Below are positions 27,404 to 30,128 of a stretch of DNA of 64,000 nt, piece by piece. The notes below the pieces were generated by a model. That model was not told where the DNA came from. It saw only the letters and a list, made by a program, of their open reading frames with translations, and ran no database searches. Where the stretch lies: NCBI GenBank assembly GCA_016180425.1, contig JACPBF010000004.1, positions 1 through 64,000 on the forward strand. The letters run 5' to 3'. This DNA is from Elusimicrobiota bacterium (GTDB lineage: Bacteria; Elusimicrobiota; Elusimicrobia; 2-02-FULL-39-32). How positions within the stretch are numbered: position 1 is the first letter of the stretch; each line of letters begins with the position of its first letter. The position numbers and the translations under genes are program-made.

Positions 27404-27616
27404 ATGGATAAAAATTTATTAATTGCAGATTTTGTTCGAAATAAAAGAACTAAAGCTGGCTTAACCCAAGTTGAATTAGCTGCTAAGTCCGGGGTAGGGT
27501 TACGTCTTGTTCGAGATATTGAGCAGGGAAAACAATCGTTTAGAACAGATGCTGTTAATAAGGTGCTTAAACTCTTTGGAGCCTGTCTTGGGCCAGTGAA
27601 TTTACCTAGGAATTGA
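27404..27616 (+). CDS. hipB: HipB-like antitoxin, XRE-type DNA-binding protein
   Basis: A 70-residue helix-turn-helix protein (TKAGLTQVELAAKSGVGLRL, then VRDIEQGKQSFRTDAVNKVL). It is the first of three overlapping genes (hipB-hipS-hipT). In the three-gene HipBST system of E. coli O127, HipB represses the operon and HipS is the actual antitoxin. Two palindromes upstream are its likely sites. No ribosome site is visible before the ATG. Confidence 0.85.
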   Translation: MDKNLLIADFVRNKRTKAGLTQVELAAKSGVGLRLVRDIEQGKQSFRTDAVNKVLKLFGACLGPVNLPRN

Positions 27617-27957
27617 TGAACATGTATAAAGAAGAAGCATTGGTTTATTACGGGAATAGAATTGCAGGAATCTTAAAGAAGAGCAAGTCCGGTTACGAAT
27701 TTATTTATGAAAAAAATTATCTTCAATATCCTAATGCCGCTCCTATTAGTTTATCCATGCCATTGCGAGAAGAAAAATATGAATCAAATCTTCTCTTCCC
27801 TTTTTTTGAAGGACTGCTTCCAGAAGGATGGCTGCTTAATATTATTTCTACTGCAGCAAAGATAGATAGAAACGATAAATTTAAATTGTTGCTTCATATT
27901 GGCCAAGATCCTATTGGAGCGGTAAGTATCTTGCCTTTTAACAGTGAGAATCTATGA
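27616..27957 (+). CDS. hipS: HipS antitoxin (HipA N-terminal subdomain 1)
   Basis: ATG at 27616 overlaps the hipB stop (TGATG); a TTG at 27613 and an ATG at 27622 are alternatives. The 113-residue protein matches only the first N-terminal subdomain of HipA: YYGNRIAGILKK, SLSMPLREEKYES, FPFFEGLLPEGW and IGQDPIGAVSILP. In HipBST this small protein blocks the kinase HipT. Its stop overlaps the hipT start (ATGA). Confidence 0.85.
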   Translation: MNMYKEEALVYYGNRIAGILKKSKSGYEFIYEKNYLQYPNAAPISLSMPLREEKYESNLLFPFFEGLLPEGWLLNIISTAAKIDRNDKFKLLLHIGQDPIGAVSILPFNSENL

Positions 27958-28874
27958 CTCGTTGTCACTGTTGTCAAAAGAATAGATCAAATTTTATTTC
28001 CTATCACACCCATTGTTTAAAAAAACTTTTTGGCGTTTCTTGGACGCCTAAGATTCCTTTTGGCATCCAAGAACTGCCAGCTCAAATTATCAAACTGAAA
28101 GGCAGAATGTCCATCTCTGGAGTTCAAATGAAAGTTTCCATCCAATTGAATCTATCAAGGAAAGAAATTGAGGTGATTGATAAAGGTGGTTCGTACATTC
28201 TTAAACCTGAACCGCCTGAATTTCCAGAACTTCCGCAAAACGAAAATCTTTGCATGAATATGGCTGGGGAGATGGGGATGGATGTTCCAGCTCATGGTTT
28301 ATTCAATATGGCTGATTCAAAGCCATGTTATATTATTAAAAGATTTGACCGCTTGAACAATGATCAGAAACTCCACAAGGAAACCATGTTTCAGATTCTT
28401 TTGGCGGAAGATAAATATCAAGGTTCTTTGGAAAAGGTAGGTGGTGCGATACAAAAGCATGCAACAAATATTGGGCTAGATGCGATTAATTTTTTCGAGA
28501 GAGTTTTGTTCTGCTTTATCATTGGGAATGGGGACATGCATTTAAAAAATTGGTCCTTAATTATTCAGGAAACCAGGGAGGTTTCACTTGCGCCTTGCTA
28601 TGATTTAGTTTGTTCAAAACTCTATATTCCAAATGAGGAAGAGTCCGCCCTTACATTGAATGGGAAAAAAAGCCGTTTAGAAAGAAAGGATTTTGAATCC
28701 CTTGCTTTAGGGTTAAAAATAGAAATCAAAGCAATTAAAAATGTTTTGGAAAAGTTTAGAAGCGCCAAAGAAAAAATATTAGAAATGACCGCTTCTTCAG
28801 AATTAAGCGATTCAAAAAAGCAGCAGTTGAAAGATATTATTTTAAACCGTTACCAACAGCTCTACCAAACTTAA
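27954..28874 (+). CDS. hipT: HipT serine/threonine kinase toxin
   Basis: A 306-residue HipA-type kinase lacking subdomain 1. It starts with a Cys-rich segment (CHCC and further Cys21). The glycine-rich loop is KGRMSISGVQ with S53-I-S55, matching the two autophosphorylated serines of E. coli HipT. Catalytic Asp194 is in GNGDMHLKNW and metal-binding Asp217 in CYDLVC. E. coli HipT phosphorylates tryptophanyl-tRNA synthetase and halts translation; the same target here is inference. The split gene order is the hallmark of HipBST rather than HipBA with a frameshift, since both junctions are ordinary ATGA overlaps. Confidence 0.85.
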   Translation: MTRCHCCQKNRSNFISYHTHCLKKLFGVSWTPKIPFGIQELPAQIIKLKGRMSISGVQMKVSIQLNLSRKEIEVIDKGGSYILKPEPPEFPELPQNENLCMNMAGEMGMDVPAHGLFNMADSKPCYIIKRFDRLNNDQKLHKETMFQILLAEDKYQGSLEKVGGAIQKHATNIGLDAINFFERVLFCFIIGNGDMHLKNWSLIIQETREVSLAPCYDLVCSKLYIPNEEESALTLNGKKSRLERKDFESLALGLKIEIKAIKNVLEKFRSAKEKILEMTASSELSDSKKQQLKDIILNRYQQLYQT

Positions 28875-28885: not shown

Positions 28886-28966
28886 GGCGTTGGGTATTTT
28901 AAAATGACACAATAAAAGAGTATGCCCTTGACAAAAGAGGCAATTTAGGCAATAATATCATTTAAC

Positions 28967-29054
28967 GAGTCTCTAAAAAGAGCAAATCCGCTGTAAGGCG
29001 GAGACGCAAAGCCATGAGTCCTTGATAAGGATTGTCAGGTTACTAAAAAGATTC
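28967..29054 (+). promoter_or_regulatory. Cyclic di-GMP-I (GEMM) riboswitch
   Basis: The stretch has the GEMM layout: P1 5' strand GAGTC (28967-28971), AGAGCAAATCC, a P2-type stem CCGCT/GGCGG closed by a GTAA tetraloop, the invariant GACGCAAAGCC junction, a second stem (AGTCC...GGATT), then GTCAGGTTAC and the P1 3' strand GATTC (29050-29054). Only one base separates P1 from the ATG of the next gene, so ligand-stabilised P1 may hide the translation start. Cyclic GMP-AMP variants of this class exist. Confidence 0.85.
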
Positions 29055-29055
29055 C

Positions 29056-29841
29056 ATGCAACTAATTATAAACTCAATTATTTTACGGCCATCTCACTAT
29101 ATTAAACGTGGGATGGTTTTTTTATTTTTTATCCACTGCGCTTTTTTCCCGGCCAATAGTTTTGCTCAAAAGAGGTCTGAAGGAGAAAATCATTCCATGG
29201 TTTTATCTAATCAAGATTCCCAACCTAGAAATGAGGAAGAGCATAGGATGAAGGAAAAAATGATGCAGCTTCCGCCTGAAGAAAGAGAAAAGATGATTCA
29301 AGGCTATAAAGTCAAAGAAATGGAAAGGAGAGATCGGGAAGAAAAATCTCTTTATTTATCTAATCAGGGGCTTAGACAACACGGGATGAGCGAGGAAGAT
29401 AAAAGGATGAAAGAAAAAGTCATGCAGCTCCCTCCAGAGCAAAGAGAATCAGCTATCCAAGAATATAAAAGGAAAAAGATGAGGGAGGGGGAGAGTCAGG
29501 ATCAAACAGGCATGGGTAAAGAAGAACATCAGCGTATGCATCCAGAAGAGAGAGGTATGAGTGAAGAAAAAAGGGATCGCATGGGTTCAGGAGACAGAGG
29601 CATGAGTGAAATGATCCATGAGCTTCCTCCAGATCAAAGAGGGCAGGCAGTTAAAGAATATAGAAAAGAGCAAGAAATGAAGCAGGGGATGAGTTCCATG
29701 GAGCCTAGTGAGGAACAAAAAAGGCAAATGACTACGGAAGATCGCGCCATGTTTCAAAAGATTATGCAGCTCCCTCCAGAACAAAGAGAAAAGGCAGCGC
29801 AAGAATATAAAATGCAAAGATCCAATTTTTACAGGCAGTAA
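29056..29841 (+). CDS. Secreted repeat protein under riboswitch control
   Basis: A 261-residue protein with a signal peptide (cleavage near Ala37, FPANSFA) and an otherwise highly charged, helical, Met/Gln/Glu-rich sequence with no cysteine after the signal. A motif built around QLPPEQRE...QEYK occurs four times, at about residues 66-86, 118-138, 183-203 and 233-253, joined by variable Glu/Arg-rich linkers with GMSEE repeats. I know no named family; periplasmic or extracellular proteins with PPEQRE helices include metal-stress adaptors and SH3/LptE-free helical repeats, but none fits clearly. Because the only visible control is a c-di-GMP riboswitch, a role in surface attachment or matrix is likely. 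The start without a clear ribosome site follows the riboswitch P1 directly. Confidence 0.65.
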   Translation: MQLIINSIILRPSHYIKRGMVFLFFIHCAFFPANSFAQKRSEGENHSMVLSNQDSQPRNEEEHRMKEKMMQLPPEEREKMIQGYKVKEMERRDREEKSLYLSNQGLRQHGMSEEDKRMKEKVMQLPPEQRESAIQEYKRKKMREGESQDQTGMGKEEHQRMHPEERGMSEEKRDRMGSGDRGMSEMIHELPPDQRGQAVKEYRKEQEMKQGMSSMEPSEEQKRQMTTEDRAMFQKIMQLPPEQREKAAQEYKMQRSNFYRQ

Positions 29842-29894
29842 TAAATTTTTAATTTCCGTCCTTAAACCTTAAAAATATCTAAATTCCATAATTT

Positions 29895-30086
29895 AACCCG
29901 AATATTGCATTAGAAAATGGAATTCGACAGAAAATCTAGCCATTTTTTCTTCACAAAAAAGTTCGCGAATACTTTCAAGTATTCTCTCACTTTTTTGTTT
30001 CGAAAAAATGGCTATCTTTTCCGTCTCGCGAAAAAATGGCTATCTTTTCCGTCTCGGTTCTCATTTTCTAATGCAATATTCGGGTT
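29895..30086. mobile_element. MITE-like 192-bp inverted-repeat element
   Basis: Perfect 25-bp terminal inverted repeats (29895-29919 and 30062-30086, outer end AACCCGAATATT) enclose further complementary arms and a central hairpin, so the whole unit can fold on itself. The right half contains two exact tandem 28-bp copies (30001-30028 and 30029-30056). A relative lies at 43036-43130 and lone ends lie at 15617 and 28873. No transposase frame is inside. Confidence 0.75.
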
Positions 30087-30128
30087 TAAATTAATCACTC
30101 TTTCCAAATTAGATGAGTGATTTGGATT

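Follow-up and report, generated by a model that had tools for sequence, protein, structure and literature searches.

A GEMM-I-family riboswitch in Elusimicrobiota with a putative expression platform among signal-peptide codons

How might a GEMM riboswitch control a gene whose start codon lies directly against its aptamer? The question arises from a locus in the window, by which we mean the whole stretch of DNA analysed here, namely 64,000 nt of an Elusimicrobiota bacterium (GCA_016180425.1, contig JACPBF010000004.1, positions 1-64,000, forward strand). An earlier note on this DNA had proposed that a c-di-GMP-I riboswitch acts there directly on the translation start of an exported repeat protein.

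Promoter, aptamer and intragenic terminator

The riboswitch itself was borne out by a covariance search of the whole window, in which RF01051 matched positions 28971-29047 on the plus strand with 63.5 bits (gathering threshold 35, E 4.4e-10). This was the sole Rfam match within the 64 kb; a hit to the sRNA Sau-59 on the minus strand was dismissed as chance (28 vs 80 bits). Including the full P1 stem (28967-28972/29049-29054), the GEMM-I aptamer occupies 28967-29054 (+) and folds, as described before, into P1, P2 with a GUAA loop, and P3. The spacing reported between P1 and the start codon was also correct, as a single base separates the end of P1 (29054) from the ATG (29056). While the aptamer and its abutting ATG thus stand, that description of the leader had overlooked two elements, a promoter and a terminator. 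The promoter is of the sigma-70 type (TTGACA-17-AATAAT, 28928-28956, +), matches the consensus at 11 of 12 positions and is kept in the sister species, represented by the MAG Elusimicrobia bacterium RIFCSPLOWO2_02_FULL_39_32. Owing to this near-consensus promoter the transcription start can be placed immediately 5' of P1.

The second element is an intrinsic terminator at 29087-29130 (+), downstream of the aptamer as transcription attenuation would demand, with a stem of 29087-29097 paired to 29108-29118 and followed by TTTTTTTATTTTTT (29117-29130). It lies inside the ORF, in codons 11-25 and within the signal-peptide segment, and its U-tract (T7-A-T6) encodes MVFLFFI of the signal-peptide core. 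The leader as a whole folds into the aptamer and this second hairpin at -40.6 kcal/mol (z-score -2.5). When synonymous codons were drawn for the first 60 positions of the ORF according to the codon usage of the window, an equally good terminator arose in 40 of 2000 trials (p only about 0.02), and in 14 of 2000 under a stricter version in which the U-tract had to be equally good as well. Judged from the sequence, the terminator is under selection beyond that on the amino-acid sequence. Promoter, aptamer and terminator are nearly identical in the sister species and the DNA upstream of the promoter has diverged; the codon differences ahead of the terminator in this pair (3 synonymous, 5 non-synonymous) do not inform on coding there. 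A scan for antiterminators gave a best duplex of -6.0 kcal/mol between the aptamer 3' strand and a terminator arm, and a cotranscriptional folding series of the window leader revealed no competing fold. A duplex between the P2 loop and UUUUACGGC reached a raw value of -9.5.

Both flanks of the locus carry further elements. Upstream, where the DNA directly adjoining the promoter is not common to the sister species, three overlapping genes (27404-28874) encode an HTH protein (HTH_3), a HipA N-terminal domain alone and a HipA_C kinase alone, and are arranged like a split HipBST-type toxin-antitoxin system. Just 3' of the repeat-protein gene lies a MITE-like palindromic element (29890-30095) with 28-nt terminal inverted repeats, which has 65 full or partial matches in the window genome, counting both strands of the palindrome, and is missing from the corresponding site in the sister species.

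Recurrence across Elusimicrobiota

RF01051 was searched in the window genome and 59 relatives, with hits in 35 of the 60 genomes, and 102 aptamers from 35 Elusimicrobiota genomes were read together with their downstream DNA. Counted from the aptamer end, 20 of these 102 had an ATG exactly at +4 and 31 had one at +3 to +5, compared with a background of about 1.15 per offset further downstream. An adjacent ORF, defined as at least 100 codons with a start within -6 to +30 nt of the aptamer, was present in 51 of 102 cases. In-ORF terminators with dG <= -10 were found in 39 of the 51 adjacent ORFs vs 3 of 39 control ORFs, and with dG <= -15 in 27 vs 0, the controls being ORFs with hydrophobic, signal-peptide-like N-termini taken mostly from the window genome and imperfectly matched in base composition. 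The synonymous-recoding test is independent of the composition of the controls; 41 ORFs remained after removal of near-duplicates, and 18 of them did better than their synonymous recodings at p <= 0.05 (binomial 2.5e-13). Most of the terminator stems start 25-45 nt inside the ORF. An apparent riboswitch platform in signal-peptide codons that recurs within one phylum is thus statistically supported, and it is the new point of this analysis. Our literature search, outside of which most subscription papers lay, returned no paper pairing Elusimicrobia with riboswitches and c-di-GMP and nothing that obviously describes a riboswitch terminator inside an ORF or signal peptide.

The gene families behind these aptamers are unrelated to each other and comprise PorV/PorQ-like barrels, a FecR protein, giant secreted proteins and the window protein. 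Two PorV/PorQ-like members matched NCBIfam NF033709 with 112 and 104 bits and with the domain starting at residues 35 and 52; since the barrel domain begins directly after the signal-peptide segment, the upstream start would be needed for their export. Shine-Dalgarno sequences precede only 3% of the starts at +2 to +9, vs 28% in the controls, and for this reason the use of these AUGs is called putative here. Complementarity to the aptamer 3' strand had a mean Z of -0.85 +/- 0.22 for terminators located ahead of the ORF, as expected for a classical antiterminator, and of -0.26 +/- 0.15 for those inside it.

Several further arrangements were seen among these loci. Some ATGs at +4 or +5 start short ORFs (47-73 codons), and these too extend across a terminator. 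At two loci (L043, L049) the +4 ATG opens a 60-codon ORF of this kind whose stop codon shares bases with the start of the exported ORF that follows, which suggests a translated leader with coupling. Pairs of GEMM-I aptamers on the same strand, a few hundred bases apart (L111/L052, L034/L116 and L094), are possible tandem riboswitches. The giant exported proteins of G000 loci L022, L025 and L027-L030 all follow a GEMM-I aptamer, reach more than 3600 aa at the largest and carry an N-terminal MAVVFFYVQVAYGVIEP and a WQERKAA motif, and the family includes the pattern MxxVFFYVQVxYGVIEP. L027 is apparently split over two ORFs, and L026 is down to 132 aa. Pfam scans of one fragment and both full-length ORFs gave no match.

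Proposed switching mechanism and alternatives

Taking together the aptamer, its promoter, the abutting AUG, the in-ORF terminator and the recurrence across the phylum, we consider it probable that the locus is a GEMM-I-family riboswitch with its expression platform embedded in the coding sequence. Transcription would begin just 5' of P1, and the folded aptamer would close one base ahead of the AUG at 29056, which we infer to be the start codon in use. Some 30 nt inside the ORF, codons of the signal peptide would form the terminator, with the U-tract doubling as the hydrophobic core. With ligand bound, P1 would be held fast next to the AUG and nothing would keep the terminator from forming, so that expression is OFF. 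Without ligand the AUG region would be accessible, and early ribosome loading and/or a rearrangement of aptamer strands would stop the terminator from halting RNA polymerase, allowing the exported protein to be made. The simplest model is an OFF-switch, and if this is true, the protein would be made at low signal. Terminators placed no more than 100 bp into a coding region work efficiently in E. coli because the first ribosome still lags behind, and they are repressed once a ribosome comes within about 27 nt of the hairpin (PMC4824070). With stems that mostly start 25-45 nt inside the ORF, termination is therefore possible and would be responsive to early ribosome loading.

A broader version, which we offer tentatively and would not favour as it stands, is that a riboswitch architecture gated by the ribosome has spread among unrelated Elusimicrobiota genes for exported proteins, with the aptamer replacing the ribosome-binding site. 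The AUG would lack a Shine-Dalgarno sequence and lie 3-8 nt after the aptamer, and the codons of the signal peptide, providing hairpin and U-tract, would serve as the expression platform. The ligand would then decide whether a ribosome loads soon enough to block the intragenic terminator, and the Phe/Leu codons of the h-region might ease the evolution of a U-tract.

The locus could instead be an ordinary transcription-attenuating GEMM riboswitch with its terminator in the 5' UTR, if ATG 29056 were unused and translation began at ATG 29113 or later. We regard this as unlikely. ATG 29056 is indeed not preceded by a Shine-Dalgarno sequence (SD energy -2.2), and in a paralogous leader (G000:C41:10425) an SD-like GGGGGA and a separate start codon stand downstream of a comparable terminator. 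The start at 29113, however, has no properly spaced Shine-Dalgarno sequence either, and the resulting signal peptide would be devoid of a basic n-region. Across the phylum, a plausible start after the terminator is available in 4 of the 39 cases with dG <= -10; 33 of the 39 have their terminator within the signal-peptide segment and no later start that would yield an intact signal peptide.

Even less credit is given to a purely translational switch, in which ligand-stabilised P1 would block the ribosome at the adjacent AUG and the in-ORF hairpin would be incidental. The single base between P1 and AUG and the clustering of AUGs at +4 across the phylum would suit such a switch, and Barrick and Breaker treat starts no more than 15 nt from the aptamer as a "direct" form of translational control (PMC2258182). 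Yet terminators in adjacent ORFs exceed both the expectation from synonymous recoding and the signal-peptide-like controls, and several of the +4/+5 ATGs that open ORFs of only 47-73 codons still have the terminator within their reach. The earlier note had reasoned along these lines without having seen the strong in-ORF terminator, and its purely translational view gives way before an element that is kept in the sister species and recurs throughout the phylum.

The embedded platform that we prefer resembles two known arrangements in part. As in the transcriptional OFF c-di-GMP riboswitch of the Cd1 type (PMC9262584), the terminator is separate from the aptamer, which allows the two to be formed together in the bound state, but Cd1 has an antiterminator and a 5'-UTR terminator, whereas the window terminator lies in the ORF and has no clear antiterminator. 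The "direct" or dual riboswitches of Barrick and Breaker (2007, PMC2258182) share a start within 15 nt of the aptamer and the combination of transcriptional with translational control. In their dual platform, however, the ribosome-binding site is part of the 3' side of a terminator ahead of the gene, and the window terminator is placed about 30 nt inside the gene.

Ligand and encoded protein

The assignment to the c-di-GMP-I class holds at the level of the RF01051 family, but c-di-GMP as the ligand is uncertain. In the Rfam alignment the ligand-contacting base equivalent to G20 of Vc2 (model position 11), which governs selectivity, is an A (28981, +), and the equivalents of A47 (A 29008) and C92 (C 29043) are both retained. 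The window aptamer therefore departs from the c-di-GMP contact set G20/A47/C92 and carries the cGAMP-type set A20/A47/C92. An A at this position was found in 23 of 97 scored Elusimicrobiota aptamers, including two other loci of the window genome. A G20A mutant of Vc2 has been crystallised with 3',3'-cGAMP (PDB 4YB1, cited in PMC6274999), and the binding pockets of natural cGAMP riboswitches differ from those of c-di-GMP riboswitches (PMC8835794). With c-di-GMP riboswitches the window aptamer shares the fold, the junction GACGCAAAGCC, a GNRA tetraloop on P2 and the A47 and C92 equivalents, but it differs in the A for G20, in its inner P1 pairs and in a terminator within coding sequence. With the GEMM-Ib (3',3'-cGAMP) riboswitches of Geobacter it shares the A at position 20 together with A47 and C92; unlike there, no recognised cGAMP synthase (Hypr GGDEF or CD-NTase) was found in the window genome, and synthases of other kinds are possible. 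Specifically, the Ser of the Hypr GGDEF signature occurred in none of 35 GGDEF domains sampled from the window genome and its relatives (33 Asp, 2 Asn), all those of the window genome having Asp, and no SMODS cyclase was detected in this 98.5% complete genome. Since the G20 equivalent is an A, c-di-GMP is not assured as the ligand, and because both the Hypr signature and a SMODS cyclase are absent, cGAMP is only a candidate; the ligand would be one of the two. The window genome contains 10 above-cut-off GEMM-I aptamers vs four GGDEF domains. Just outside the window lies a second GEMM-I aptamer of the A20 type (G000:C1:71630-71758), which precedes the gene of an exported fibronectin type III protein of 956 aa (L024:4722-7589, -).

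The 5' end of the aptamer is divergent. Its innermost P1 pairs, U28974-A29045 and A28975-U29044, replace the usual C-G/G-C by two compensating changes, and among the 97 scored aptamers they occur only at the window locus and its sister-species ortholog. The variant model c-di-GMP-I-GGC (RF03167) was rejected, since the window aptamer scores 58.5 bits against a gathering threshold of 59 and has an A for the variant's G in the CGCGAA junction (A47-equivalent); the copy in the sister species reaches 59.2 bits. It is highly improbable that we are dealing with a degenerate or non-functional copy, for although the C93 and G94 equivalents and the 5' CGA depart from conserved bases, the aptamer scores 63.5 bits in RF01051, at least 60 bases are identical between the two species, and the P1 changes compensate each other, which argues against decay.

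The ORF (29056-29841, +) encodes an exported protein of 261 aa, and the earlier description of four repeats and no recognised family agrees with our results. A signal peptide is predicted at 29056-29166 (+) (MQLIINSIILRPSHYIKRGMVFLFFIHCAFFPANSFA, with an inferred cleavage site), with K17 and R18 in the n-region and a hydrophobic core of residues 18-32 in the U-tract-encoded h-region. Four copies of an LPPEQRE...EYK motif follow at residues 70-85, 123-138, 188-203 and 237-252 (29263-29310, 29422-29469, 29617-29664 and 29764-29811, +). Neither Pfam nor NCBIfam gave a family at cut-off. Membership in DUF3106 (PF11304) was rejected at 12.1 bits (gathering threshold 24.3, E = 0.29); the motif, the predicted helices and export are alike in DUF3106 and in Spy/CpxP-like LPPEQR/LTxxQ helical proteins, a likeness that we treat as resemblance only. 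The AlphaFold model is all-helical and of low confidence (pLDDT 62, two-sequence alignment). Among 295 genomes of the phylum a close homolog was found only in the sister species, with 92% identity and the same leader. The idea that the protein might always stand behind a GEMM leader thus applies to this one close homolog but not to a weak homolog in another genome (G010), which is near none of the three GEMM hits there. A role as matrix or surface component, as previously suggested, would be a guess, since nothing beyond export backs it and the anatomy of the locus resembles an OFF-switch.

An in-ORF architecture of this kind would be systematically missed, because annotation looks for terminators in 5' UTRs and classes starts within 15 nt of an aptamer as purely translational (PMC2258182). 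If our reading is true, several unrelated gene families of this one phylum have a protein export signal and a regulatory RNA element written in the same bases. Furthermore, the window genome points to a cyclic-dinucleotide regulon that would mostly control giant and surface-exported proteins.
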